A stretch of 64,000 nt of DNA from Ascidia mentula (lineage: Eukaryota; Chordata; Ascidiacea; Phlebobranchia; Ascidiidae), in the NCBI GenBank assembly GCA_947561715.1, contig OX387203.1, positions 19,406,001 to 19,470,000 on the forward strand. Reading direction: 5' to 3'. Position 1 is the first letter of the stretch; each line of letters starts with the position of its first letter. The position numbers were made by a program, and so were the translations under genes. This document shows, in pieces, positions 10,030 to 58,481 of this stretch. Below the pieces are notes generated by a model. The model did not search any database and was not told the DNA's origin. It saw nothing but the letters and a program-made list of their open reading frames with translations.

Positions 10030-11011
10030 TCGAAATATTTATTGTCGTGTTTAGGTAAAAACAAATATTTATTGTCGTGTTTGGGTAAAAACAAATATTT
10101 ATTGTCGTGTTTGGGTAAAAACAAATATTTATTGTCGTGTTTGGGTAAAAACAAATATTTATTGTCGTGTTTGGGTAAAAACAAATATTTATTGTCGTGT
10201 TTGGGTAAAAACAAATATTTATTGTCGTGTTTGGGTAAAAACAAATATTTATTGTCGTGTTTGGGTAAAAACAAATATTTATTGTCGTGTTTGGGTAAAA
10301 ACAAATATTTATTGTCGTGTTTGGGGAAAAAACAAATATTTATTGTCGTGTTTGGGTAAAAACAAATATTTATTGTCGTGTTTAGGTAAAAACAAATATT
10401 TATTGTCGTGTTTGGGTAAAAACAAATATTTATTGTCGTGTTTGGGTAAAAACAAATATTTATTGTCGTGTTTGGGGAAAAAACAAATATTTATTGTCGT
10501 GTTTGGGTAAAAACAAATATTTATTGTCGTGTTTGGGTAAAAACAAATATTTATTGTCGTGTTTGGGGAAAAAACAAATATTTATTGTCGTGTTTGGGTA
10601 AAAACAAATATTTATTGTCGTGTTTGGGTAAAAACAAATATTTATTGTCGTGTTTGGGTAAAAACAAATATTTATTGTCGTGTTTGGGTAAAAACAAATA
10701 TTTATTGTCGTGTTTGGGTAAAAACAAATATTTATTGTCGTGTTTGGGTAAAAACAAATATTTATTGTCGTGTTTGGGTAAAAACAAATATTTATTGTCG
10801 TGTTTGGGTAAAAACAAATATTGATTGTCGTGTTTGGGTAAAAACAAATATTGATTGTCGTGTTTGGGTAAAAACAAATATTTATTGTCGTGTTTGGGTA
10901 AAAACAAATATTTATTGTCGTGTTTGGGTAAAAACAAATATTGATTGTCGTGTTTGGGTAAAAACAAATATTGATTGTCGTGTTTGGGTAAAAACAAATA
11001 TTTATTGTCGT
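10030..11011. repeat. 30-bp minisatellite, about 33 copies
   Basis: Tandem units of about 30 bp with core ATATTTATTGTCGTGTTTGG and spacer GTAAAAACAA. Most units are identical. Variants are TTTAGGTA (first unit and near 10383), 31-bp units with GGGGAAAAAAC (near 10321, 10473 and 10563) and paired units with TTGATTGTCG (near 10821-10860 and 10941-10980). Because 30 is divisible by 3, both strands show long open frames that are artefacts. Confidence 0.97.
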
Positions 11012-19243: not shown

Positions 19244-19932
19244 TTAAAAATGTACTGCTCTTCTGGCATAAACGTACTGTATTTTGCGACGTTTCGTCTG
19301 CCATGCGGCGAGACTTCATCAGGTATAACGCACCAATTGCATCACACTGAAACACGCAGGGGCAAAAAAGAAAAAGAAAAAAGGGGGAACGTTGACACCA
19401 CTTGTCAACTCACGTGCTAGAGGCAGAGGCGCCAAACATTGCAGAAGACACAACAATTACAACAAATTATTGTAAACCGCCGGAAAGAAAACACATTGTT
19501 CTTTGTTATTGACGCAACCACTATTTTTGTGGATGTGCAACGACTCAAGAAATAGCCGCTTGGCGTGCTCCAGCTCTATTTCCAGGACTTGGGCTCTATC
19601 GAAGTCAACTTTATGTCGCAATGTCACCGCATGATTGGCCAACGCAGTCTTGCTGGCATCTTTCGATGCGACATCACGGCGATGCTCTTTCAGTCGCGTC
19701 TTAATGGCCCTTCTGGTTTCGCCCATGTATATACCATCGCAATCTTTGCATGGTATTAAATAGACCACTCTCTTTGGCTCGAAAGCCTCCGTAGCAATGG
19801 GTCGTAAAATTAGATTGCCAAGCGTTGTAAGAGGCTTCGTGTAAACTTTTATGTCGTAATCATACATCAATCTTCGCAATGTTTCGGCAAGGCCAGGGAC
19901 GTAGGGAATTACAACTGTTCCGCTAGTGGGCG
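19244..19932 (-). mobile_element. 5'-truncated Penelope-like retroelement with GIY-YIG endonuclease
   Basis: Minus-strand coding from 19932 to 19457 covers the linker (VIPYVPGLAETLRRLMYDYD) and the C-terminal endonuclease: VVYLIPCKDCDGIYMGETRR, then TRLKEHRRDV, ALANHAVTL and a conserved C-terminal tail. GIY...YMGE is the GIY-YIG signature with the upstream CxxC of the Penelope type. The reverse transcriptase is missing. The 3' untranslated part carries a hammerhead motif. The insertion is bounded by the 12-bp direct repeat TTTCAAAAACAA (19232-19243 and 19933-19944). It lies inside an atlastin-like exon, whose uninterrupted paralogue at 25.88 kb shows the original sequence. Confidence 0.92.
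19281..19330 (-). ncRNA. Penelope-type hammerhead ribozyme motif
   Basis: Minus strand: CTGATGA (19316-19322), stem II AGTCT...AGAC, then GAAACGTC. Stem III is reduced to the self-complementary ACGT, which can pair only between two molecules. Minimal hammerheads of this kind are known from Penelope-like elements and are thought to cleave as dimers. Stem I is degenerate here. Confidence 0.75.
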
Positions 19933-32000: not shown

Positions 32001-35000
32001 GCACCTAATTTGGTGCCCAACGGGTGACGGTGGCTGTATAGTCACCACAATGTAGAAGTATTTGCCTGACAGGATGGTCGGCATGATCGTCTACAACAGT
32101 CGCACCAAGCTACACTGATGAGACCTTATAGTGCGAAACAGTGGTCAACTGTTTACAGCTCACAGAATTTATAACATTGGCGCCAATTTTCTTTCCATTA
32201 GTTTTTTTCAACAGATGTTACGCGAAATTATTGTGAAGTCGTAGATTGTGTATTGTTATTCACACATTTGCATACACAATCGTGCATGACTAGTTGGCAT
32301 TAATCTAGTTTATTTCAAACCAAACCTAACATTTACAGATTATCAGCCATGACGACTCTTCATGTTTCAACATTTACAAACGCAAATCATCCGTAACTAT
32401 TATTATCTGACCTAATATATTACTTCGTTACAGTTGCGACAACCTATTTGACCACTACGGGTCAAACAAAGTATGCGCCTTAAGAGAGAAGGAGTTTTGC
32501 AAAGGAATGATCCAATGTGTTGGAAAAACGTTGTGTGACTTCTGCCCCTCCCACTTCCAGTGTCCGAATTCATCTTGTTGGAAACGTTCGTCTGTTTGTG
32601 ATGGCGATCCTTGCAATGACTGTCCAGCTTTCCAACACTGGAATAATGGACATGGGTTCAAATGTGTTCGGAATGGCAGGAATTGCAATCTTCCGCAGAT
32701 GTTTCTATGGGATGGCATTGCCGATTGTGATGATAAATCTGATTTGTGTTACGCCTCGGAGAATGGAGATGTCAGGTGTTTCGTTTTTGATTGCATTTTG
32801 CATATGCGTACTTGCCAGCACTGCTCCAGACTAACCTCTACCTCTGTGCTCCTTATCTTTCCATTATTCGGCGTCACTCTTCCTATTGCAGTGAAAACGA
32901 AAAAACTGAAACATTTGCAAACATGAATATAGTTTTAGTCAAATGAGCTTAGTGGTTTTATGGTTATAAATGTTAACAAAGAATGACAATAACTGCTTGC
33001 TTGTGGTAAACTATTGCTTCTGTAAACAAATTTGTTATTGCAGAGATATTGTTAATACATCGTCCATGAAAGAAGGATTGTGTTTCCAATGTAAAAATGA
33101 CTCAATGATCATCTCAAGGTCAAGTGTTTGTGATGACGTCATAGATTGCCCTGATATGAGTGATGAATGCAGTTGTAATGGAAAATTCCATGAGCAATAC
33201 ATCAAGAACAAGGAAGTGTATTTTGGGTAGGTTTGAAAAGACCTTTATTTCGTTGATGCAAATAAACTATCAATTTTATTTAGTTCTAAACCACGTTGCA
33301 ATTGTTTCGACAATAATGGAGTCTGTTACAACACATTGGATCAATCCAACATTTCCTGTAACTCAAAAAATGAAATCTGCGACAAGCTCGCTCATTGTTT
33401 GGGGAATTCCCCATGTGAGTACCTCTGCCCCTCCCACTTTCAGTGTCCGAATTCAGCTTGTTGGAAACGTTCGACTGTTTGTGATGGCGATCCTTGCAAT
33501 GACTGTCCAGCTTTCCAACACTGGAATAATGGACATGGATTCAAATGTGTTCGGAATGGCAGGAATTGCAATCTTCCGCAGATGTTTCTGTGGGACGACA
33601 TTGCCGATTGTGATGATAAATCTGATTTGTGTTACACCTCGAAGGATGGAGATGTCAGGTACTGATGAAATGTTGTGGTTGGTTGAAAGTATCTTCCGGT
33701 TAAGATAAGACAGAATGGATTTTAATGTTAGAATATAAATAACCTCATGTCAAACGCAGTTTAGTGCAAAGAAAACATGTTTCACCAAAAACATCATCAG
33801 TTCTTATTCAAAAAGAATGGACTTCATTTGCAGAGACATTCGAAGTTCTCAGACATTTAATCATCGTTCATGTTTCCAATGTACAAATGACCCCATGATC
33901 ATCTCAAGGTCAAATGTGTGTGATGACGTCACCGACTGTCCCGATAAAAGTGATGAATGTTTTTGTCAACCTGGGAAAACCAAAGATTGTTGCAAGTTTC
34001 ATTAGTAAGTGATAAAGCATTAGTTTATTCTTTGGATTGAAACCACTGACATCCAAAGCGTCACCAGAAATCTATGACTTGCAATATTGTAAGATGTGTT
34101 AAGTGTCTGTTAATACTACATGACTTGTTTTATTGGCGCGACTCATAAAGTAATGCAGGTGTTAGGGATGTGTTTCGGCGATGCAGGAAAATAAACATTC
34201 CTTTACTGTTATGGCATCATAAAGACGTTTTTGACCGTGATTACAAAGTATTGAAGTCGAAAAAGACTTTAAATGCAAGTCATCGCATATCTGGGCGCCA
34301 CAAGTCACCAACCTTTGTGACGTAACAGTGTTTCAATGATGGTCAACCAAGCGTGGGAAATTTGCTTTGTTCCAAGTTGACAGTTTTATTTGTTGGGTTA
34401 AAGTGGTTTCAATATGTTTGTCTGTTCTTCAGCTACCGTGTTTTAAAACCAATTAGGATAAAGCGAATGTTTGGTATTGTTTATATTTCTTGACATACTA
34501 TTGTTGTTATGACAAGAGAACAAATCCAGTGTGAGTCATTTTTGCTTCAGTGGAGTGCAGCAGGTGTTTGGAGGTTAAACTTCCTTTCGTAATTTTTGGT
34601 CAGTTTTGAGGAGAATTCCCATGTACGGGTTTTAAAAATGTTTGTTTAATTACTACAGAAGTCGCAAGTAAATATCATCTGCATTCAATTTGAGTTTTTA
34701 ATTATAAAATAAACGCGAAACAGTCAAATATATTCAGTGTTGATGAGGAAGTGAAGAACGACTGCTCAACAACAACAACCAACTACATACAGGGGGAGTG
34801 GACGTGTGCGGTAAGTGAGAATACATGGCTTCTTTTTAGTCGGAAGTCAGTTCACCAGACTAAATGAAAATGGTTTAGATGTTTACGTACATTTGCAGGT
34901 TCATACCAACACAATGTACTTACTCACTTGCTGGACAATCTCCAGTTTAAACAAACGTTTGCAACAATGTTTACGCAGTGGAACGCAATTATTACACGAA

Positions 35001-38000: not shown

Positions 38001-40302
38001 ACAGAGGCGGATACTTTCATAATTAAGTAAAGTGACGTCAATATGAATAAAACTTTTGAAGCGCCCAATGGTAAAAGGACGAATACCAAAGAATAAAGTG
38101 CGACCCACTGCACAAATCATGTTCTTTGCACTTAACCACACAAGCACACCTCATCGTTTGCCAACAGATGAGAACTACCAGTTTACGAATTATTTTTGAT
38201 TTTTTGTCCAATTTCCATAGTTCCGTTGTTAACCAATTACATACAAAACAGTAATTTCGCATTGTGTTGTTTACCGACGCCAAGATGACTACAAAGTTTT
38301 CTTTAATTTACTTCACATAGAAATTCAATGGAGTCGACGACTGCTCTGATTGGTCAGACGAGTGCCCAACAAATACAAAAGTGATCAACGAAAACATTTT
38401 TTCATCACGATACGAGTTGATTGCAAACCCATTTCTACGTGCCATTGTGTGGATAATGGGGATGCTCGCCATTGCCGGAAATTTGGTAAATTAAACTAAG
38501 TTTGTTTTGTCTTGGTTGCACAATAAGAACACGTGTTATATTCCTTCAATTTGTTTTAAGGTTGTCATGGTGATGGAAGGTAAAACGTTGGCGACGACAG
38601 AATCACAATCTGCTGCATTTCGTACAAACCATCTGCTCGTTTTGAATCTATCCGTTTCCGATCTACTCATGGGAGTTTATCTGATCATGCTGGGAGCCGC
38701 TGGTGTCAAATACTCTGGAAATTATTGTGCCAAAGACCTTATTTGGAGATCAAGCGGAAGTTGCACTACAATGGGGGTATTGGTTTTGCTTTCAAGCGAA
38801 ACATCGGTGTTTACAATGGTTCTGTTGACAATATTCCGACTGTATGCTGTGAAAAACGTAAGTGAAACAATTGTATTTGGTTAAGTCAGCTATTGCCAAC
38901 TTCGTTGAACCGGTGACGGCCCTTGCAAAAATTTTACGACAACTTTATCTTTAGAAATCTTTTATCTCCAGAAACCTATTTATTATCATTCTCACAGCTA
39001 TCGCTAGAATCTAAGCCTGACATGAGAAACGAAACTAAAACGAATATTGTTAAAATGACGCAGTTTTGCCCAATTTGGGAACTACAGGGTAGAGAAAGAA
39101 GGAGCAATTTCCATTACGATGGGATTCGAACTGATAACTATGTTCCCCACCCCTCGATTTGGAAGAACCACAAAGCTTGCAAACTTGTTGTTTTTAATGA
39201 AAACACGTGAATGTTCTCTTTTGTTTCAGCCACTCGATGCATCCTTGAAACCGGAATTGAAAACTGTCATCCTCTCCATTATACTCTCGTGGGCATTCTC
39301 GTTTACAATTGCTTTTATTCCACTCACAACTCAACTTCAACATTTGTTTGAAACCAAAGCTTGGATGAATGAGAATCCGTTTTTTGACAATGCTGCAGTC
39401 GACTTCTCTAGTAAGATTTTGTCGTAGATGTTGGTGATGAAACCAGTTTCGAATGACACTAGCGCTCCGTATACAGGCATGAATACCTTCTTGGATCGAT
39501 TTGTAACTTTCCAACAAAACTTCACAAGCAACGATTCCCATGTACTCAACACTGTCCTCATGCGAGTGAATGATGCTAATTCCTGGATGGATTTTATGGA
39601 TATTCTTGAGGATTACAATTACACTGAGCTATTTGATATTTCTGGATATTTGGGGTTCGTTTTTATTCACGCAAAATCTTTAAGTTACGATTCACAAAAT
39701 TGTTTATGTGTAGATATTACAGCAGCAGCAGTGTTTGCATCAGCAAACTGTATGTAACGACCAACGACAAGGCATGGGGATATTCAATTGCCATCATTAC
39801 TCTTAACTACCTGGCCTTCATGTTCGTGGCAATTACATATTTTTGGATATACAAGAAGACAACTGCCAGTGCCAGGCAAGTGAACGAGAGACCAAGAGAT
39901 GGCAGAGCGGCAAGACAAAACAAAGGTAACCGCATTCGTATTTGCAAACGTGTTATCCCATTAATGCTGTTTGTTTCGGCAGAAATGCAAAAGAAAATTC
40001 TCCGACTGATAATTACCGATTTTCTCTGCTGGGTTCCAATTTCAATCATGGCATTTGTAAACTTGGGTGGAGTCCCTATGCCTCCAGTGATGTACGCTGT
40101 GTCAGCAATCATCCTACTCCCCATCAACAGCTCTCTAAATCCCCTCATCTACTCCAACGCACCGAAACTGCTTTATGATGGAGTCCGGGATGGCCTACGT
40201 GCCGTATTCAGGCCTCAACCACAGGAAGAGCAACAGGAAAATGTGGCTGTGGTTGCTAACCGACAAAACTTAGATGTGGTTGAAGCAGAAACTGCTCTGT
40301 AA
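29082..40302 (+). CDS. 7TM receptor with LDLa-module array (rhodopsin family, RXFP/GRL101-like)
   Basis: Fifteen exons: 29082-29092, 29888-29961, 30070-30211, 32434-32775, 33044-33226, 33284-33658, 33834-34004, 34738-34810, 37106-37387, 37606-37737, 38321-38485, 38561-38857, 39230-39410, 39447-39654 and 39714-40302. Phases agree throughout and total 1075 codons. Order: signal peptide MGARYWLKVVGIVLSFITIS; about ten LDLa or LDLa-like modules (CDGYRLLGCWDGSDE, CDDVTDCPDKSDEC, CDGFIDCKDESDE, CSDWSDEC); then seven membrane spans starting FLRAIVWIMGMLAIAGNL, with TM2 NLSVSDLLMGVYL, TM6 ITDFLCWVPISIMAF and TM7 NSSLNPLIYS. The TM set resembles relaxin-receptor/GRL101 GPCRs, but no leucine-rich repeats are seen between LDLa modules and TM1. 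The D/ERY site reads IFRLYAV. The 11-bp first exon and weak junctions at 39447 and 39654 are the least certain. Ligand unknown. Confidence 0.85.
30495..31228. mobile_element. Probable degenerate hAT element
   Basis: Begins CAGGGGTGGCCAACACGTCG, a typical hAT terminus, and ends TTGGCCACCCCTC, its near-reverse complement. No matching 8-bp target duplication is visible, and the interior is not transposase-like. Lies in an intron of the receptor gene. Confidence 0.5.
31160..31310 (+). repeat. tRNA-derived SINE-like sequence
   Basis: Has a pol III B-box-like stretch GGGTTCGAATCCCATCGTGG followed by an A-rich tract. A related box (GTTCGAATCCCATCGTAATG) occurs on the minus strand at about 39110-39130, and a weaker form at about 62370-62390. 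Confidence 0.5.
31440..31476 (-). repeat. 3' half of hammerhead-bearing repeat
   Basis: On the minus strand: GAAACAGTGGCCATCTGTCT then GCAGCTCACAGAATT. This is the GAAA box, stem III, cleavage site and distal stem I strand of the family; the CTGATGA half is absent. Confidence 0.75.
31640..31950 (+). pseudogene. Intron-embedded coding-like fragment
   Basis: Higher GC than its surroundings; one frame reads QRLQKVYQNRLLNEKAEKLH and is helical and charged, another reads TGFLMVWQHRRVQKGHKG, loosely IQ-motif-like. Possibly a processed pseudogene scrap. No family can be assigned. Confidence 0.25.
31976..32165 (+). repeat. Hammerhead-bearing repeat, degenerate copy
   Basis: TTCCACCTTGTTTCCTCCGT, GCACCTAATTTGGTGCCCAA and TATAGTCACCACAATGTAGA, then CTGATGA (32115-32121), GACCTTATAGTGC, GAAACAG and CTGTTTACAGCTCACAG. 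Stem II and stem I have mismatches and the cleavage site is TT rather than TC, so activity is unlikely. Confidence 0.8.
32434..34004 (+). repeat. Tandem duplication of an LDLa exon pair in the receptor
   Basis: Exon pair 32434-32775 + 33044-33226 is paralogous to 33284-33658 + 33834-34004. The blocks CDGDPCNDCPAFQHWNNGHG and FKCVRNGRNCNLPQMFLWD are identical in both, and CFQCxNDxMIISRSxVCDDV recurs in the second exon of each pair. Introns differ more than exons. Confidence 0.9.
34815..36380. other. Large receptor intron, no certain exon
   Basis: Holds a 201-codon plus frame (34815-35420), an unrecognised minus frame (35511-35798) and a stretch at about 35990-36370 that is duplicated at 58640-59035. 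One plus frame there reads FCGYLKYCDHGESLEEESRE, possibly a relic LDLa-like exon, but splice sites do not fit the receptor phases. Confidence 0.3.
36387..36858 (-). mobile_element. Solo LTR (Gypsy-type) in receptor intron
   Basis: Reads TGTCACGGATTTATT ... TTTTACGCCACA on the plus strand (TG...CA termini). Flank CAAG follows it, with GAAG before it and CAAG in the 59-kb paralogue, giving a 4-bp target duplication with one later change. Paralogous to the LTR at 59038-59529, which still has internal retrotransposon sequence beside it. Confidence 0.8.
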
Positions 40303-41220
40303 ATAAACCTTGGGTTTGGTTTTGTGCAAAATATGAAGTACTTTTTCTGACATCGAATTGACAGAACCGACTCCATACGCTTATCTTCCATGTGTAGAAT
40401 TCTATTTGTGATGGCAGAGTAATTCGAACACAAAATTGATGTTTCAAATGACATCTGTGTTTCATTGTCTCTATTAGTGCCCGATCATGCTTTTCAGTTG
40501 TATTTTGCGAGTAATCATTTTATGTAGCATGGTATGAGTCACGTGATATGTTGGTTGGACTCGGCATGCAACACATGGACACTCTTATTATGTGTGAGTG
40601 TTGGAACGCTTGACATCAACTTGGGTGGAATCGTTTTGGACATTAAAATGATGCGGTGATTCCCCTTGCTTCCAGTGACTTCCGCACTTTATTTTGTTTT
40701 CTGTCGAATTGGAGAAACATTTGAGTGCATTTGTGGCGTCCAAAGTACCAACCATCGTATGAGATAAAATATGATGAAGTTGGACCATAATGGGGATGAA
40801 ATCAGTGTGTTTAACGACGGATATGAAGAATTGTGTCGCTGGATGATTCCACGAAACCAAGACAAACTACTGGTAGAGGGAAATATATTCTGCCAATTAA
40901 ACTTTACCGAAAAAAGTTAAAAAAAAACCTCTTACATGCCTTGTACATAATCCTGTATAAGTATGATTTAATGCAAACAAGATGTTGTAAAATTCTTGGC
41001 ATGACAAACTGTCAGTGCAAATTCCAATAAGAATTGCGTTTATCGTAACGTAGCATCCAACGAGCAGCAACAAGATTTTTTGTTTGAAGTTAATTCTTCT
41101 TGCCATCAACTACCGTTTGGTACAAACTAGCGGTTAGTTTTGTCCCTTTAAAATGTTTTTGTTAAAAAATATTTAAACTTTCACAAACATGTTACAATCG
41201 TTTTGTCAAATTTAATATCT
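40303..41220. other. Receptor 3' flank, duplicated at 52617-53660
   Basis: Includes TTTTTCTGACATCGAATTGA and CATGGTATGAGTCACGTGAT, both repeated at 52.6-52.9 kb with a few percent divergence. Probably 3' untranslated region plus intergenic DNA; no polyadenylation site can be fixed with confidence. Confidence 0.6.
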
Positions 41221-41224
41221 GTTC

Positions 41225-41300
41225 TTCTGACACAATAAAAACGTTACTTTATTGACCGACGTTTCGCCTGTTATCCAAATTGGCTTCCTCAGGGTAAGGA
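41225..41300 (-). ncRNA. Penelope 3' stub with hammerhead motif
   Basis: Minus strand: ACCCTGAGGAAGCC, loop, GGCGAAACGTCGGT, then CAATAAAGTAACG. CTGAGGA satisfies CUGANGA; stem II GCC/GGC; ACC/GGT starts stem I; stem III is palindromic ACGT. No coding part remains. Confidence 0.75.
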
Positions 41301-42300
41301 AGGAATGAATATCAACTCGATTCCCTCATGTTGTTGTTTTATAAAGAACAAAAACAGCGAGTTTAAGACCTCATGTTTAACCTGCGAAATCCTTGTTTAA
41401 TGAAACTATGTGTGGTTAAGGTAGCCAATGTGTCTGGCTGCGTCCATTCTTTGTGGTCAGACATTTTTGTGAAGAACATTGAAAATATTTTTGAGCAATT
41501 AAGGTTAACATCTCTTGGCGTAATGTTTATGTGGAATAATAACAAATGCAACAACAAAACGTAAATATTGCAGCAAGAGCTGTGATCGCCAAGAATATTA
41601 GAGCTGTGATCGCCAAATATAAAGGGCCTGCGCATTGGGGCGATCATGCCTTGCTATGCGAAAGCATGGTATTACTTCTGTATTGCAGCAAGATGATAAA
41701 TATAAACTCTTATAACTCATTGTTGTGAAATTAAGACAAGACTTGTCTTAATATGCGTGAGCCAATGGCGGTACGCTAGTTGCCCTGATCCTTGCGCGCT
41801 GTACGCTTGCGTGAGTGATTGACTGTGTGTTGTCGCGCACGTGTTCTGTTGGTGTGGTTTTTCGTTCTTGTCCAGGCATATGTACAGTTTTCTTTTGACC
41901 AATATGTTTTGCAGTTGTTCCTTAGTTAAAGTGACTTAAACCTCATGAAACCTCATGTATGAAATAAACAATTGACATCATAACACTCATCATAACAGAA
42001 GCACTGAAACGTTTTGCAACATGTTAATTCAGTCAGCTTTCTAATAAAGGCAAAAAATATATTGCGCTTTGAAAAACACAGTCAGTAAATTATTTGAATG
42101 GATTTAAATCGAATATACGTTACCATGCTGGTGTTGGAACCAATTATGATTGGAGTGAGCTGCGGTTACGCCACTGTTGCGAGGAATTTAATTCTCACCC
42201 GTTCAGCTTGCTGCCTGATGAATAACTTGCCCGTAAAACCAGGCGAAGACTTCCACATTATGGTGACTATTTTGCTAAAGAGAAGTCGTTTAACGGGATG
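41301..42300. other. Between receptor and lectin copy 2
   Basis: The tandem phrase AGAGCTGTGATCGCCAA occurs twice at 41577-41621. A 73-codon frame at 42098-42319 is also duplicated at 54470-54620 as part of the segmental copy; it has no recognisable domain. Confidence 0.35.
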
Positions 42301-49487: not shown

Positions 49488-49665
49488 TTACACATCGACG
49501 ATTGACCGAAAGGTACCACAAAGTGGAAATCTGTGTGCCTGCTAGTCTACCAGCTAGCACAGTGCCACATCAACAGCTGCACTGATGAGACCTTACAGGT
49601 CGAAACAATACGTGTATACACCCTGTCTGCAGCTCTCATTGATTATTATGGCTCTTTTGCGCATA
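49488..49665 (+). repeat. Hammerhead-bearing repeat inserted in hAT-like copy C
   Basis: Compared with copy B (GATTATGCCATTAAGTTTTC), copy C splits at ATGCCATTA and resumes at ATGTCATTAAG, an apparent 9-bp target duplication with one change. The insert runs from CACATCGACGATTGACCGAA to GCTCTTTTGCGCATATA. Confidence 0.85.
49575..49634 (+). ncRNA. Type I hammerhead ribozyme, all core residues present
   Basis: Stem I AGCTGCA (49575-49581)/TGCAGCT (49628-49634); CTGATGA 49582-49588; stem II GACCT/AGGTC (49589-49593/49597-49601); GAAA 49602-49605; stem III starts CA/TG with a longer palindromic loop containing GTGTATACAC; cleavage predicted after C49627. All invariant residues are present. Confidence 0.88.
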
Positions 49666-49782
49666 TAATGTCATTAAGTTTTCAACGCTACGTAACCGTT
49701 CCAGTTAAATGTTGTTGTTGGATAGAGACTCGAAACACAAATTTCTCCCCAATAGTTTGCGGTTGAAATAAAACGACTTAAC

Positions 49783-50239: not shown

Positions 50240-51112
50240 ACCGTGACGAACCATCCAATGAGAAAGGCCGAGGGAAATCGCCCACCAACAACAGACAAAC
50301 AGAGGCGGCGCTATACGACCTCAGTTCAACCAATCAGGGAGGTGCTGGCGGTAAAGCAACCAATCAAATGTCGGGCCTTGCCACACCCAAACTATAAATT
50401 TGAAGTCAGCTGTGGGCAGGTTCTGAGTTTGGGTTTAGCGAATCTATTTAATGTTTGATTTCAATGCTTTAACTTTTGACACGGTTTAAAGTTTGTAATT
50501 TTCACATCGTTCTTGTCGTTCGAAACGAAAACTGGCAAATGTGCATCAGTTTGTGTCACTGGTTGTTTGTTCATAGTAATGTAAGCCGGCAGGTCCTTTG
50601 TATATTTGACCGCTTAGACCAGTGGTTCTCAACCTGAGTTATATCGAGTACCATTTTAAAATCCTGCACAGTCGCTCTACATTTAAACAAAAAAAAACAA
50701 TCTATGGCACAAATTAAGAAAATATAGGAATTATAGGAAAGTGTCATTTTTAAACCTTGTTGTCGTATAAGAGTTCATGTCTTCCAAATCATTTCAACCG
50801 TTAAATGTATGCTACAAGCTAAATTGTTAGCGCCAAACATATTCATTAAATATTTCCCTGTTCCGCCTGGATGCCTTTCGCGTATCATAGGCAGGGAATC
50901 ACTGACTTCAGACTAAGTTGACCCCTGCGCCTCCGAAATCTTTAAATGTCCGTTCAAAGTGTGAGTTTTGGTGAAGTGCGAAACCCTCATGTCGGGGGTT
51001 CTTTGTATGTTCCAGCGCAGTGTACGTGGTTACAGTATGTATTGGAGTACAAGCGTGGATGAAACAAGACTAATTAAGCGTGAATGTATTGTATGTATTG
51101 GTGTACAAGGGA
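50240..51112. other. Intergenic; one hAT terminus at about 50620
   Basis: CAGTGGTTCTCAACCTGAGT at about 50621 is a classic hAT end, but no partner terminus follows before 51.1 kb, so only a truncated end is present. Near 51040-51110 a GTATGTATTGG(A/T)GTACAA phrase is duplicated at the retrotransposon border. Confidence 0.5.
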
Positions 51113-52637
51113 CAATCCGTGAACGGCATCGAACACCTTCTTTTGCCAGGACGAGGGAACGACGGGCCGAGGTCTTCCAAGGGATGTTTCACACAGCAGC
51201 GTGGTTCCTGAATTGCCAACCGGGACATCTTGCAGACGTAACCCGGTAATTGCTGTGCGATAAGACTGCACTTCATCGGTTTGTTGCGCGCGTGCCAGAG
51301 CCTCGCAATCAAGGTCGAATAGAGGCACACGTAGGGCACTCAAGAGAGACCTGGAAAGTGCGTCCGCGACAGCATTCGACTTGCCGCTAATGTGCCGGAC
51401 ATCGGTAGTGAACTCTGAAATGGAAGAAAGTTGACGCTGCTGGCGAGCAGACCAAGGGTCGGCAGCCTTCTTGAATGCGAAAGTAAGGGGTTTGTGGTCG
51501 GTGTACGCAGTAAACTTGCGCCCTTCTAGAAAATAGCGAAAGTGCCTTATGGCCAGATGCAGCGCAAGAAGCTCGCGGTCAAAGGCGCTGTATTTCGTTT
51601 CCGGCTTTCTCAACTGACGGCTGAAGAAAGCAAGTGGGGCCCAATGACCGTCGGAAAATTGTTCAAGGACTGCACCCACAGCGGTCGCAGAGGCATCTGT
51701 CGTGAGCGCGATGCAGGCTTGCCACTGTGGATGATGCAAAAGCGTAGCATTGGCGAGAGCGTCTTTAGCCTTATCGAAAGCCCGCTGCAGGTCGACCGAC
51801 CACACCAGTTGTTTAGGTTTGCCCGCTAAAGTACCATAAAGCGGTTTCATAATATTGGCAATATTGGGCACGAACCTGTGGTAGAAATTGACCATTCCTG
51901 AAAACTTCTGCAAACCTTTGATGGTGGTCGGCACAGGGAAGTTCTTCACCGCGCCAACTTTGCTGTACAAGGGTTTGATGCCGCATTGGTCGACGAAATG
52001 CCTAAGAAACTCGATGCCGCTTTTGCCAAACTCGCACTTTTGTAAGTTGACGACGAGATCGTGGTCCGAAAGCCGTTGGAAAAGCTGCTCGAGATGTTCC
52101 ATGTGGGCTGCATGTGTTGGACTTGCGACAAGAATGTCGTCCAGATAGACATAAATAAAATCCAAACCTTGACAAATGGCGTCCATGAGCCTTTGGAAAG
52201 TTTGAACCGCATTCTTCAATTCAAACGGGGTTCGAAGAAACAGGCCAAATGGCGTGATTACAGCTGTCTTCGGGATGTCAGCTTCAGCCACATGACCCCC
52301 CTCCAGAAGCGGCCGGAAACCTTGTCCCAAAGAAAGAACAGGCTTAAATAGACGCCGGTTGCCCCAGCCATTACCGGCAACCGGCGTTGTCGTTTCCCTG
52401 ATAAGCGCACGAAGGGCAGCATTGGCGCGCGTCTGCTCCAAAGCGGCTGTGATAAAAGCACATGCTGGAGGGCTTCGCAGTGCGGCGTGGAGCTGACCGA
52501 GTGATATGCTCCTCGCTGACAGCAAATTCCGCGCTGTTATTGCGAGAAAGCCACAATAAATTCGCCCGTTGGGCAAGCTGCCGCGGATCTGCAGTATCCT
52601 CACCCGCCAAAACCACCATTTTTCTGACACCGAATTG
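51113..52637 (-). pseudogene. Gypsy LTR-retrotransposon fragment (gag end, RT, RNase H), GC-rich
   Basis: A 518-codon minus frame. Gag C-terminus (MCFYHSRFGADARQCCPSC, in a neighbouring frame) runs into the gag-protease linker, which is fused by deletion to reverse transcriptase: [27 protein letters not shown] (YLDD catalytic box), KCEFGKSGIEFL. RNase H follows with TTDASATAVGAVLEQ, FDRELLALHLAIRHF and YTDHKPLTFAF. It ends before the integrase zinc finger. Most of protease and the RT N-terminus are deleted, and no LTRs are attached. Its GC content is clearly higher than the surroundings, pointing to a different retrotransposon lineage from the 54.6-kb element. Confidence 0.92.
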
Positions 52638-53664
52638 ACAGAACCGACTCCATACGCTTACCTTCCATGTGTGGAAATCTATTTGTGATAAAAGAGTATT
52701 TCGAACACAGAATTGATATTTCAAATAACATTTTTCTGTTTCAAGAGCTCTCAAGTGTGACAAAGTATCAACATAGACGCCAGATCTAGTTGGATGACGA
52801 ATCGAACCAACATAGACGCCAGATCCAAAGCGTTTACAGGTTTCATTGTCTCTATTAATGCCCGGTCATGCTTTTTAGTTGTATTTTGTGAGTAATCATT
52901 TGATGTACCATGGTATGAGTCACGTGATGAGTTGGTCGGACTCGGCATCCAACACATGGACACTGTTATCATGTGTGAGTGTTGGAATGCTTGACATCAA
53001 CTTGGGTCAAATCATTTTGGACATTACAATGATACGGTGATTCCCCTTGCTTCCAGTGACTTCCGCACTTTATTTTGTTTTCTATCGAATTGGAGGAAAC
53101 ATTTTAGTGCATTTGTGGCGTCCAAAGTACCAACCATCGTATGAGATGAAATATGATGAAGTTGGAACATAATGGGGATGAAATCAGTGTGTTTAACGAC
53201 GGATATGAACTTATCGTGTCGCTGGATGATCGTTTACTTGTAAATATGATGTTATGCTGTTGGAACCATTCCATGTAACCATACAAACTATCGGGAGAGG
53301 GAAATATATTCTGCCAACTAAAAAACTTCACCGAAAAATGTTAAAAACAGCCCCTCAAAACCCCTCTCACATGCCATGTACATAAACCTGTATATCATGA
53401 ATAACATGGATAAGTATAATTTAATGCAAAAATGATGTTGTAAAATTCTTGGCATGACAAACTGTCAGTGTAAATACCAATAAGAATTGCGTTGATCGTA
53501 ACGTGGCATCAAACGTGCAGCAACAAGATTTTTTGTTTGAAGTTAATTCTTCTTGCCATCAACTACCGTTTGGTACAAACTAGCGGTTAGTTTTATCCCT
53601 TCAAAGTGTTTTCGTTAAAAAATATTTAAACTTTCACTAACATGTTACAATCGTTTTGTCAAAT
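52617..53664. repeat. Segmental copy of the receptor 3' flank
   Basis: Collinear with 40345-41220 at a few percent divergence. A phrase CAACATAGACGCCAGATC is duplicated locally at about 52769 and 52809, unique to this copy. Confidence 0.85.
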
Positions 53665-53760
53665 TTAATATCTGTTCTTCTGGCACAATAAAAACGTTAC
53701 TTTATTGACCGACGTTTCGCCTGTTATCCAACATGGCTTCCTCAGGGTAAGGAAGGAATG
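53665..53760 (-). ncRNA. Penelope 3' stub with hammerhead motif (segmental copy)
   Basis: Paralogue of 41225-41300: minus-strand CTGAGGA (53739-53745), stem II GCC/GGC, GAAACGTCGGT. It arose by the segmental duplication, not by separate insertion, as flanks are also shared. Confidence 0.75.
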
Positions 53761-54167
53761 AATATCAACTCGATTCCCTCATGATGTTATCGGTCCTCAT
53801 TCCATTTTGTTTTAAATTATTATTGTTCATACGCGTTCAGTTCTATTTGTGCAGAAATAAAATTTAATTGAATTCCGTTGTGGAATGGATGAGCTTGTTA
53901 AAATCTATTAAGAACTCGACCTATATCCTAAATGATATTATTGGCCAAGATAACCGCCGAAATTGAAGCCAAAGAATTTTTCCGGATCGGAATCCACAAA
54001 TTATTGGAACCCGTTGTGGTGAAAAAATAACAATATAATCTAGAATATCTCTTATAAAGAACACAAACCAGCCAGTTTAAGATCTATTGTTTAACCTGCG
54101 TTGTGACACGGGGCCTGACGGCACTATTGGTTGAGCTTTGCTTGGCCATAGTGTTTCCACCTTGTTT

Positions 54168-54350
54168 TATCCGTTTTGGTTGCACCTAGTTTGGTGCCCA
54201 ACGGATGATGGTGATTGTATAGTCACCACAAAGTGGAAGTCTTTGCTTGGCCGTTTGGTCAGCAAAGTCGTCAGATATTCAGACCAGCTGCACTGATGAG
54301 ACCTTTTAGGTCGAAACAGTGGCCATCTGTCTGCAGCTTATACACAATAA
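54168..54350 (+). repeat. Hammerhead-bearing repeat, best-preserved copy
   Basis: TTCCACCTTGTTTTATCCGT, GCACCTAGTTTGGTGCCCAA, TAGTCACCACAAAGTGGAAG, the hairpin CTTTGCT...AGCAAAG and then the ribozyme. Copies of the same order lie at 31976-32165 and, in part, at 8466-8600. Confidence 0.88.
54286..54338 (+). ncRNA. Type I hammerhead ribozyme, intact
   Basis: Stem I AGCTGCA (54286-54292)/TGCAGCT (54332-54338), 7 perfect pairs; CTGATGA 54293-54299; stem II GACCT/AGGTC (54300-54304/54308-54312); GAAA 54313-54316; stem III CAG/CTG (54317-54319/54327-54329) with loop TGGCCAT; cleavage dinucleotide TC, predicted cut after C54331. Every invariant hammerhead position is satisfied. Confidence 0.93.
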
Positions 54351-54795
54351 ACTCTTATACCTCATCATAACAGAAGAATGGAAACGTTTTGCAACATGTT
54401 AATTCAGTCAGCTTTCTAATAAAGGCAAATATATTGCGCTTCGAAAAGCACAGTCAGTACACTATTTGAATGGATTTAAATCAAATATACGTTCCCATGC
54501 TTGTCTTGGAACCAATTATGATTGGAGTGAGATGCGGTTACGCCACTGTTGCGAGGAATTTAATTCTCATCCGTTCAGCTTGCTGCCTGATGAATAACTT
54601 GCCCGCAAAACCAAACGAAGACTTTGTGGCGGATGCCACCCATGAATTTACTGAAGCGTGATACGTTTTGATTTTAGTATTACCTTTTTCTGCGCGTCTC
54701 GAAACAATTAAGCGTTTTCTGGCAACGACGCGCATTCAGATAAATACACGCTACGAAGCACCCGCTTCAATTGGTGACCCCTGACGTTTGAGGAT

Positions 54796-55262
54796 ATGGA
54801 AGAAACTCCTGCCATGCACGCAGTTGCTATGAAACTGCCAACGTTTTGGACACAGCAACCAAGAATATGGTTTCACCAAGCAGAAGCCCAGTTTGCGCTA
54901 CGAAACATTTCTGCTAATGAAACGAAATGTTTTTACGTTGTTTCGTCCCTGGATCAAGCAAGCGCCGGTAGACTATTGGATTTATTGGAAAAAACCCCGG
55001 TTCACGATAAGTACAATTACCTAAAGCAACGGTTGATAAACACTTACGACTGCTCAGATTATGAAAGAGCGCATAAACTGTTACATACATCTGAACTTGG
55101 AGACCGATCTCCAGCAGAATTAATGGATGAGATGCTGTCAATGTTAGGCCGTCATAAGCCTTGTTTCCTTTTTCGTTATATCTTTCTGCAAAGGATGCCC
55201 GAAGAAATACGAATTATACTCGCAAAAGAAGATTTTGACGACCCACGTGTATTGCAAAGGCA
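54796..55262 (+). pseudogene. Gypsy gag (N-terminal part)
   Basis: Begins MEETPAMHAVAMKLPTFW; capsid-like segment with WFHQAEAQFALRNISANET, YYL-type VVSSLDQASAGRLLDLL and GRHKPCFLFRYIFLQRMPEE. Both the zinc-knuckle-like C-terminus and protease are deleted at a junction near 55260, where the frame changes and RT begins. Confidence 0.9.
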
Positions 55263-55808
55263 CGTCGTTTATCCCCCGAAAAGCTTGCAATCGCTAGAGC
55301 GGAGTTTGCCAAGATGCTTCAAATGGGTATCATTCGTCGTTCATCCAGTCCTTGGGCCGCACCACTACATATGGTTCCAAAGCCATCAGGTGAATGGCGC
55401 CCCTGCGGTGACTACCGCCGCCTAAATGTGTCCACCCAGCCAGATCGCTACAGCATTCCGCACATCCAAGACTTCACATCGCGGTTGTCCGGCTCCACGA
55501 TATTTTCGAAGATCGACCTAGTTCGGGGCTACCACCAGGTCCCTGTTGCAGAGAAAGACATCCAAAAAACTGCTATCATAACTCCGTTTGGACTGTTTGA
55601 ATTCTTAAGAATGCCTTTTGGTCTGAAAAATGCAGCCCAGACTTTTCAACGGCTTATGGACCAGGTATGTCAATCTTTACCATTTGTTTTTGTTTACCTG
55701 GACGACATACTGGTGGCCAGCAGTTCCCCAAGTCAACATAAATTACACCTAGAACAGCTTTTCCGCCGCCTGCAGGAATGCGGCCTTTTAATCAACTTAA
55801 ACAAATGT
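55263..55808 (+). pseudogene. Gypsy reverse transcriptase, first part
   Basis: [53 protein letters not shown] and [16 protein letters not shown] (YLDD catalytic site). The reading frame is interrupted after LINLNKC by the hairpin MITE at 55809. Confidence 0.92.
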
Positions 55809-56140
55809 AGGAACACAACTCACGGGTTTTCTCATAATGCTGAGTATAAATAGACTGGCCCATATTGTAATTAACACTGTCATGTTAAAGACGTTTCGAC
55901 AAAAACTTTTGTCATCATCAGTTTGACTGACGCGATTGGTAGAGCTCCATCAATATAAGGAGCTGACCTGACCGACGTCACAGATAAGGCTCGCGCGGGT
56001 GGTGACGTCATTTTGCTATCGGCCACACACCACTGAGAGTCAAACTGATGATGACAAAAGTTTTTGTCGAAACGTCTTTAACATGACAGTGTTAATTACA
56101 ATATGGGCCAGTCTATTTATACTCAGCATTAAACAAATGT
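55797..56140. mobile_element. Hairpin MITE inserted in the Gypsy RT gene
   Basis: Two near-perfect inverted arms of about 91 bp (55838-55929 and 56038-56128; ends TGCTGAGTA/TACTCAGCA) surround about 108 bp including CAGATAAGGCTCGCGCGGGT. The interrupted RT codons resume after a 12-bp direct repeat TTAAACAAATGT (55797-55808, 56129-56140). Between the left repeat and the left arm lie 29 extra bases (55809-55837) with no counterpart on the right. Confidence 0.93.
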
Positions 56141-58134
56141 GTTTTTGGAAAAAAACAAATCCAGTTTCTAGGTCATTTGGTTGATGCCGAAGGCGCAAAA
56201 CCTTTGCCCAGTAAAGTGGAAGTCATAGAAAAATTTCCTCGGCCCACCACGGTTAAAGGTTTGCAGAGATTTGCTGGAATGATAAACTTTATCACAGATT
56301 TATTCCTTCTGCCGCAAGTATCATGTCCCCCATTTATAATTCCATGTCAAAAAGGAATGCTCATCTGCAATGGTCTTGTGATTTGCAATGTGCTTTTGAC
56401 GCAGCAAAACTTGCACTGGTAAATGCAACCAAACTTAACCACCCACATCCTGATGCCACAGTCGCCCTGACTGTTGATGCATCCGATAGGGCTGTAGGAG
56501 CGGTGCTTGAACAGCATATAAACGGGGTTTGGAAACCTCTTGCATTTTTTAGCCGTCATTTGCGTGCTAACGAGATGAAATACAGCGCTTTCGACCGAGA
56601 GTTGCTGGCGGCTCATCTGGCTATTCGTCATTTCCGATACTTTTTGGAGGGCCGCATATTTACCCTCTACACCGACCACAAACCGTTGACTTTTGCGTTA
56701 CAAAGGGCATCGGATCCATGGTCTGCAAGACAACAGCGCCACTTGTCCGCCATATCCGAATATACAACGGACCTTCGCCATGTACAAGGTAAATACAATT
56801 GTGTTCCTGATACCTTATCCAGAGCAGTGATTGGCTCCATTCAAAATCCTGCAATCAATTTGGATCACATTGCTCTTGCCAAAGCGCAGCATGTTCCCGA
56901 AGTACAAGCTTACCGCACTGCCGTATCCAACTTACAAATTAAGGAAGTTGTCATGGACACCTCACTGGTGAGACTTTTATGTGATGTGTCCACTGGTGTT
57001 TGCAGACCAATCATCCCGCAATCATGGCAAAGAAAGGTGTTCGACGCTATTCATGGTCTAGCCCATCCATCATTCAGAACAACACGCAAAATCATTTCGT
57101 CAAGGTTTGTGTGGCATGGTTTAAACAAGCAAGTTGCAGAGTGGGCTCGGCAATGCTTGCAATGCCAACGTGCAAAAATTCGAACACACGTACGTTCCCC
57201 TCTTCATCGTTATGAAATCCCCAAAGCGCGATTTTACCACGTTAATATTGATATTGTTGGCCCTCTGCCGCCATCACAAGGAAGTAGATACTTGCTTACC
57301 ATCGTCGACCGCTTTACACGATGGCCAGAAGCCATTCCAATGTCTGATGCGACAACCGTCACTTGCGCAAGAGCGTTTATATTTCATTGGATTGCCCGCT
57401 TCGGGATCCCAACGGAAATATCGTCTGACAGAGGCTCGCAGTTCACATCTGAATTGTGGAAGAACATTTGCCAGCTCATGGGAATTAAAAACCACTGCAC
57501 TACAGCGTTTCCCCTACAGGCTAACGGATTGGTGGAGCGATTTCACCGGCAACTCAAAAGCAGCCTGATGGCTAGATCGGCTAATCCAAATTGGATTGAC
57601 GACCTGCCCTGGGTTCTGCTCGGTATACGTAACATGCCAAAAGAAGATCTCACCACGTCTAGCGCGGAACTCGTTTACGGCTCAACCATTTCCCAACCTG
57701 GGGATTTTCCTGTTGCTGCAGACACGTCTATCAAGTATTCCGAGTTTGTTCAAACTCTTCGTCGTGCGATTCAAACATTATTACCGCAGCCCATGTCGCG
57801 CCATTGTCGAACTCGTGTATTTGTGCCACCTTCGTTACGCAATTGCACATATGTTTTCGTGCGTAAAGATGGATATCGCCCCCCACTTTCGCCACCGTAT
57901 GATGGTCCTGTTAAAGTGTGTGCTCGTCACGAAAAGTATTTTGTGATAAACATTTCAGGTGTTGAACATTCCATTTCGATTGATCGCCTTAAACCTGCTA
58001 TAGTTGACTGCTCCAAACCGGTACCTGTTGGGCAAGCTCGTAAAAGAGGGCGACCAAAAAAACAACATCCCGCTTCTGGGGGGAGTAATGTGGCGGATGC
58101 CACCCATGAATTTACTGAAGCGTGATACGTTTTG
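56141..58134 (+). pseudogene. Gypsy pol: RT end, RNase H, integrase
   Basis: FLGHLVDAEG and TVKGLQRFAGMINF, then a single-base frame loss near 56290. A 600-codon frame continues: RNase H (TVDASDRAVGAVLEQ, FDRELLAAHLAIRHF, YTDHKPLTFAL), integrase HHCC (HGLAHPSFRTTRK, CLQCQRAK), catalytic core (NIDIVGPLPP, SSDRGSQFTSELW, ANGLVERFH; D-D-E residues present) and a C-terminal GP-type module (YDGPVKVCARHEKYF). It runs into the 3' LTR and ends HEFTEA. The RNase H and integrase are intact at the residue level. Confidence 0.93.
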
Positions 58135-58481
58135 ATTTTAGTATTGCCTTTTTCTGCGCGTCTCGAAACAATTAAGCGTTTTCTGGCAACGACGCGCATT
58201 CAGATAAATACACGCTACGAAGCACCCGCTTCAACTTCCACATTATGTTGATTATTTTACTAAAGAGAGGTCGTTGCAAAATATAGCAGCAACAAGCAAC
58301 TATAAGTGGGCACCGTTTTTCAAATATTGTCAACGGACAGTGGGCGCTGGGGAACCGATCGCAACAGGAGAAAGTATTGTGTGATAATGGGTTCATTGAC
58401 TTCACTTGATTCAACATACAAGTGGAGAAGTACGGAATGCAATGTTACTTCTTTTATCGCGAGTAAAAACATCTTACTGAA

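Follow-up and report, generated by a model that had tools for sequence, protein, structure and literature searches.

What is the dispersed repeat that carries a hammerhead ribozyme at this locus of the Ascidia mentula genome, and which enzyme spreads it? Retrozymes have been named as mobile elements that produce circular RNAs, and the mobilising enzyme in animals had been left open. We analyzed a window of 64,000 nt, by which we mean the whole stretch of DNA considered here, together with further copies of the repeat in the genome. The best explanation as a whole, to which we give a probability of roughly 85%, is that the repeat is a non-LTR retrozyme with a two-site insertion cycle of the type of Penelope-like elements (PLEs). 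Retrozymes of this kind are already known; the added result is the mode by which the copies insert.

54286..54338, plus strand: type I hammerhead ribozyme, predicted cleavage between 54331 and 54332

Judged by its sequence, this segment is an intact type I hammerhead ribozyme. Stem I is formed by AGCUGCA (54286-54292) and UGCAGCU (54332-54338), seven perfect pairs whose strands start 46 bases apart. The core consists of CUGAUGA (54293-54299) and GAA (54313-54315), stem II pairs GACC (54300-54303) with GGUC (54309-54312), and stem III pairs ACAG (54316-54319) with CUGU (54327-54330) around a loop of 7 nt. C54331 is the cleavage nucleotide, directly before the predicted cut. Every residue, stem and distance named in a preliminary description of this DNA was found in the letters, and its assignment to type I and predicted cut after 54331 hold on the sequence. 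The same description had called a chance origin negligible. A structured scan, defined by the hammerhead core with stems of at least 5, 4 and 3 pairs, gave two sites in the window (49582 and 54293) against one in 300 dinucleotide shuffles of the window. When just the looser core pattern was required, 48 matches at 10 places were obtained, with 3.2 expected and 27 in the largest shuffle; several of these places are minimal motifs of the PLE type, and one is a decayed relative of the ribozyme, for which the structured scan gave no match:

32115..32153, plus strand: decayed family-1 hammerhead with broken stem II, found by the loose pattern, its likeness to family 1 judged by eye

Genome-wide, the 39-nt core was present 1,462 times (771 + 691) with at most three mismatches, and its reversed control not once. 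The core occurs both singly and in tandem. An exact scan of viral contigs for the hammerhead core gave no match.

None of the Rfam 15 hammerhead models reached its gathering score in the window, so that one half of what the preliminary description had named as speaking against the ribozyme did occur to the letter. The top scores were 23.1 bits for the RAGATH-1 hammerhead (cut-off 56.3) and 19.6 bits for Hammerhead_3 (48.5); the core residues and three stems of the canonical type I hammerhead are present in the sequence at scores below these cut-offs. The minimum-energy prediction was an alternative fold, with -17.4 versus -15.1 kcal/mol for the hammerhead over the 53 nt and -19.2 versus -15.7 kcal/mol with flanks (differences of 2.3 and 3.5 kcal/mol, respectively), where the predicted energies ignore the non-canonical hammerhead core. 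In the minimum-energy fold of both families of the repeat (see below), CACUG of the core (54291-54295) pairs with CAGUG (54317-54321), which comprises part of a stem III strand and of the loop. This pairing would silence the ribozyme and might represent an off-state of the circle.

The Rfam misses and the alternative fold do not outweigh the ribozyme, because 46 of its 48 positions are conserved between the family of the window copy (family 1, unit of 285 nt) and a diverged relative with a unit of 293 nt (family 2), which is also present in the window:

49575..49634, plus strand: family-2 hammerhead, predicted cleavage after 49627, in a copy that covers at least 49500-49675

Elsewhere the two families agree at 150 of 253 positions (59%). 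We gave little weight to the Rfam shortfall also because the models miss family 2 as well: four of five family-2 loci scored 25.5-29.1 with RAGATH-1, below the cut-off, and the fifth (L099) gave no match at an E-value of 1. Two other Rfam matches with low E-values, both below cut-off, were seen over retrozyme sequence at L013:1382-1668 and L108:186-354 (minus strand), namely to snR70 (45.2 bits, cut-off 55, E 1.2e-07) and MIR6140 (46.8 bits, cut-off 140, E 1.9e-06); they perhaps reflect long hairpins or inverted pieces. When the two families were aligned and folded, the energy was -41.6 versus -20.5 (sd 4.1) for column shuffles, lower than in all 200 of them. The alignment contained four compensatory pairs compared to a shuffle mean of three, and 70 of the 200 shuffles also reached four; because the pairs do not beat the column shuffles, we do not claim covariation as proof of RNA structure.

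The copy in the window is a single, incomplete unit. Throughout, unit numbering starts at the base following the cleavage point, and site A is the first of two 3' ends described below.

54101..54348, plus strand: 5'-truncated family-1 retrozyme monomer, unit positions 55-285 followed by 1-17, ending at site A
54332..54348, plus strand: stretch 3' of the cleavage point that ends at site A (GCTTATACACA), where many copies have a fixed 3' end

This copy is 97.6% identical to the 285-nt unit of locus L013 and has at least 81 matches in the genome (40 of 1,995 candidates scored). The GC content is 46.3% in family 1 and 47.4% in family 2, and the longest ATG-initiated frame on a 4-mer of the unit has 31 and 30 codons, respectively. 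The repeat is thus non-coding and dispersed, as the preliminary description had stated. In the region around it (50-64 kb), the copy was not flanked by any pair of direct repeats of 24 nt or more, and ARAGORN predicted no tRNA gene at 53900-54700. With the five-unit query and edge search introduced below, no target duplication was found for the window copy. The insert is missing from a paralogous repeat at 41 kb. There the host match reaches 54100 (41386) and resumes either at 54347 (19-nt match, 41702) or at 54361 (267-nt match, 41986), which leaves roughly 315 to 600 bp exclusive to the 41-kb paralogue. An insertion with loss of target DNA and a later gain in the 41-kb copy both fit this arrangement. 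As the window copy is a monomer, its own transcript could be cut only once and could not release a unit circle.

To describe how copies end, we collected 75 family-1 loci, 35 from a BLAST search with the window copy (38 minus three identifiers for places already included) and 40 from chromosome 1. The ribozyme is expected at the 3' side by selection, because the chromosome-1 loci were picked for the exact core and the others for likeness to the window copy. Ends were called with a five-unit query per locus, and a target-site duplication (TSD) was accepted at a score of at least 9 within 8 bp of both block edges. A two-unit query (52 of the 75 loci) had produced false ends at position 285 and was replaced; under the five-unit query L003 and L004 fall out because their pieces lie too far apart. 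TSDs were present in 54 of the 75 loci compared to 14 of 2,960 mispaired flanks used as controls, and 21 loci, including the window copy, had no clear TSD under these rules. The duplications were 9-17 nt long (12-14 nt in 39 of the 54) and 77% A+T. L042 and L043 were taken as one insertion owing to their common duplication, leaving 53 insertions with inserts of 60 to 1,825 nt.

The 54 loci with TSDs showed 87 outer 3' ends, which fell at two places. Site A (unit 13-26) accounted for 49 of them, 46 at 13-20 and three at 22, 25 and 26, all three overlapping the duplication by 8 nt; the other 38 were at site B (unit 37-53). With respect to combinations, 31 loci were A+B, 16 A+truncated and five B+truncated, two combined B with an end at 25 or 26, and neither A+A nor B+B occurred. 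In the A+B insertions the outer pieces stand head to head, with A at one end and the inverted B at the other. The 5' ends of the pieces were scattered across most of the unit, with positions 1-20 overrepresented (16 of 86) and four ends within 2 nt of the cleavage point; pieces primed at B were often short. These end positions, the orientation rule and the target duplications are direct observations, as are the multi-unit copies described below. A hairpin between A and B was considered as well and dropped, because the predicted structures were not clearly above shuffles, of which 21, 133, 93 and 76 of 300 folded equally well.

Family 2 ends in the same way. A TSD score of at least 9 was reached in 10 of 20 fetched loci, five of the 20 being cut at the fetched edge, and in none of 380 controls. 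Six of the 10 were A+B, four B+truncated, and again A+A and B+B were absent. Site A was located at 13-17 and site B at 41-49 after the cut, so that both positions are nearly kept between the families while the surrounding letters differ. Two families of largely different sequence with nearly the same two positions give a hint of where constraint may lie.

A two-site tail has been described as unique to PLEs (PMC11167929). In work with a purified PLE protein, reverse transcription was initiated at two neighbouring sites within the RNA (Frangieh et al., 2024; PMC11167929); the protein cuts and extends both DNA strands and prefers A/T-rich DNA, and the interval between the sites corresponds to the PLE tail. 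In rotifer PLEs, a 31-bp tail at one inverted end and duplications of 8-10 bp were reported in 2013 (PMC3846280). Besides the two retrozyme families, which both bear the two-site signature, we found the same geometry in a PLE of Ascidia mentula, termed PLE-W, of which one insertion lies in the window inside the LTR element downstream of the ribozyme:

55797..56140, minus strand: PLE-W insertion (comparator) with TSD TTAAACAAATGT at 55797-55808 and 56129-56140, sites A and B at +55 and +81 relative to cleavage
54625..58234: Ty3/gypsy-type LTR element, starting 287 bp downstream of the ribozyme, with 146-bp LTRs that are 99% alike

The TSD of this PLE-W insertion measures 12 nt, and minimal hammerheads are present in its two inverted pieces. 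Among 16 PLE-W places, 13 had a TSD of 11-14 nt (mispaired control 2 of 240), and all 13 were A+B, site A lying at +48-55 and site B at +79-81; this share is not a rate, because 15 of the 16 places were selected for pieces in both orientations. A longer PLE-W stretch (L095) had a match to RVT_1 and, in a separate frame, one to GIY-YIG just under the cut-off. A second PLE family (L079) has an open frame of 872 aa with both RVT_1 and GIY-YIG, and its match ends cluster at two points about 37-38 nt apart. A genome search for GIY-YIG returned at least 121 matches, of which at least 19 fell in open frames no shorter than 700 aa (150 of 382 candidates scored). PLEs with minimal hammerheads thus coexist with the retrozyme in this genome, and those with open frames are the likely source of its enzyme. 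The retrozyme unit itself has no frame for a reverse transcriptase with GIY-YIG and is not a PLE. The letters at site A of family 1 (TTATACAC) resemble by eye those of PLE-W (TTATACTC). Neither family 2 nor the second PLE family has these letters; the A-site letters for this reason do not single out the helper PLE, and a shared A-site motif was abandoned as proof of it.

The preliminary description had noted no visible reverse transcriptase. This stands for the repeat itself; nearby, the separate Ty3/gypsy-type element contains reverse transcriptase, RNase H and integrase pieces and, by eye, a 4-bp duplication (ACTT). We rejected a link of the retrozyme to this element, because it has its own LTRs and duplication and because the dispersed retrozyme copies end at A or B. 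Other features of the window are as follows. A repeat with a minimal PLE-type hammerhead is present in two copies (95%) at 53407-53788 and 40954-41335, with the hammerheads on the minus strand (53687-53745 and 41234-41292). Its best 19 genome matches, both window copies included, all lie at 17.5-19.5 Mb on the same chromosome, and its ends were not clean in the end analysis. Another minimal motif of this type was seen at 19269-19322 (minus strand). A 518-aa frame at 51074-52630 (minus strand) with reverse transcriptase and RNase H matches belongs to another retroelement. There is also a 30-bp tandem repeat at 10033-11011 (32.5 copies, 98% matches), and a frame at 39700-40302 (plus strand) matches a rhodopsin-type 7TM receptor just above the cut-off.

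With site A 13-20 nt past the cleavage point and the copied RNA running through that point without a break, the template was joined there. It was therefore a circle or an uncut multimer. In 15 of the 53 insertions, a run in a single orientation exceeded 285 nt (in three by at most 3 nt), the longest measuring 1,679 nt. Units within one insertion differed by a median of 2.7% on the same strand (26 pairs) and 1.1% when inverted (17 pairs), compared to 5.2% between loci; L051 and L075 contributed 31 of these 43 pairs, and differences of 10-20% were seen for single pairs in L026, L059 and L069. At L010, two variants occur in both inverted pieces and in no other locus of the set. The tandem arrays of L051 and L075 each hold two unit types within one target duplication. 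One circle copied repeatedly does not explain every array, because the units within an insertion are not identical. In both arrays the inverted piece seems to be of the type of the nearest direct units (at L051 by one base in 89), a pattern that might result from a template switch or snap-back and is seen in these two cases only. Some templates may also have been cut at the cleavage point, given the 5' ends at unit 1-20 and the four of them next to that point; copies made from RNA cut there would be too short to enter the sample.

The alternative that survives best, which is compatible with mobilisation by PLEs, is that an uncut tandem or read-through transcript served as template and self-cleavage was a side reaction. 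Such a transcript would be joined at the cleavage point, as the ends require, and would account for the mixture of unit types in L051 and L075. Furthermore, insertion of Anolis PLE RNA in vitro did not need cleavage (PMC11167929). On the other hand, the 54 loci reach their TSD within 8 bp on both sides, with edges free of flanking DNA, an argument softened by the fact that carried flank could still hide among the other 21. The far stronger conservation of the ribozyme than of the remaining unit is also what is expected if cleavage matters. We consider an uncut template unlikely on balance, and a circle with moderate confidence the form that was copied.

Ordinary target-primed reverse transcription by a LINE, with inversions made by twin priming, would also account for 5'-truncated copies that share a fixed 3' end and have TSDs of 9-17 nt, as observed here. 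Twin priming yields variable inversion points, whereas here the inverted piece also has a fixed outer end, at a second site. A 2024 review still gives LINEs or PLEs as candidates for the enzyme (PMC11722881). The LINE reading is nevertheless very improbable, as A pairs only with B (31 versus no A+A or B+B) and the duplication, lying within 8 bp of the block edge in 54 loci, leaves no space for a poly-A or repeat tail. Finally, a MITE-like DNA transposon whose terminal inverted repeats are imperfect, or a satellite that recombination has spread, with an incidental ribozyme, can be dismissed almost entirely: head-to-head copies with TSDs can mimic a MITE and tandem arrays do exist, but 21 of the 54 copies (A+truncated, B+truncated) have no inverted outer piece, the 5' ends are spread over the unit and the inserts have no constant length, TSDs of mostly 12-14 nt are long for known cut-and-paste families, and the ribozyme is conserved in two families.

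For the two-site PLE-type cycle we propose the following course. Tandem retrozyme copies would be transcribed, each hammerhead would cut the RNA into 285-nt units, as its sequence predicts, and a host ligase would close the units into circles, as work in other animals suggests. A PLE protein would nick both strands of an A/T-rich target. Reverse transcription would then start inside the RNA, at site A from one target strand and at site B, about 28-30 nt beyond A, from the other. Copying would proceed towards the 5' side of the RNA past the cleavage point, in some cases going round the unit more than once, and would produce head-to-head pieces and tandem arrays within one target duplication of mostly 12-14 nt. 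Catalysis, closure of the circle and the role of the PLE protein are steps that we infer from these features and from other systems.

The insertion ends suggest, at the level of integration, that PLE machinery mobilises retrozymes, which had earlier only been suspected in the literature. Cervera and de la Peña (2020; PMC7229834) regarded PLEs as a strong candidate from their co-occurrence, tandem copies and hammerheads, and we encountered no insertion-end analysis in the accessible text of that article, whose main text does not contain the words tunicate, Ciona, ascidian or urochordate. A guide of 2022 states that animal retrozymes may rely on PLEs, and a tunicate genome paper gives nine loci for the type I hammerhead (PMC8704543). 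Among the matches listed from the open-licence literature, no earlier title concerned insertion ends or a tail signature of retrozymes, or retrozymes of tunicates. The ends provide a simple signature that could be looked for in any genome with retrozymes, and they predict that a PLE protein would start in vitro at unit 13-20 and 37-53 of the RNA. A wider reading, whose chances we rate as even, is that animal retrozymes are SINE-equivalents of PLEs, with a two-site internal start on a hammerhead-made circle and rolling or switching between circles. If true, two start sites about 30 nt apart, one per target strand, would be their mark, and L051 and L075 would each record a single event in which two circles were copied.

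Compared with known systems, the element is, on sequence grounds, a non-coding, non-autonomous non-LTR retrozyme of Ascidia mentula. The comparison with retrozymes made in the preliminary description holds on the sequence. The repeat shows six of the eight listed features of the animal non-LTR type, a list that also names the absence of LTR, PBS and PPT signals and expression as linear and circular unit RNA. It resembles these elements (PMC7229834) in the type I hammerhead, non-coding units of 170-400 bp (here 285 and 293 nt, from monomers up to the longest multimeric run), single and tandem occurrence, GC content below 50%, high copy number, PLEs in the same genome and, when present, TSDs of more than 4 bp. 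RNA circles were shown for those retrozymes and are a predicted stage for the Ascidia mentula element. Plant LTR retrozymes (PMC7229834, PMC7761336, PMC11722881) are likewise non-autonomous hammerhead elements for which a circular RNA stage is assumed. Their hammerheads are of type III and lie inside LTRs; these elements also have a PBS, a PPT and 4-bp TSDs and probably use gypsy machinery. Here the hammerhead is of type I, the TSDs measure 9-17 nt and the nearest LTRs belong to a separate gypsy element. PLEs with minimal hammerheads are like the retrozyme in having two internal start sites separated by a tail of about 30-40 nt, partial copies in inverted orientation, tandem copies and A/T-rich targets (PMC11167929, PMC3846280). 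In both, the hammerhead lies 5' of the start sites, and the TSDs of PLEs are 8-10 nt in published cases or 11-14 nt in PLE-W. The retrozyme differs from them in being non-coding, in its short unit, in its full stem III and in the position of site A, which follows the cleavage point by 13-20 nt compared to 48-55 nt in PLE-W.
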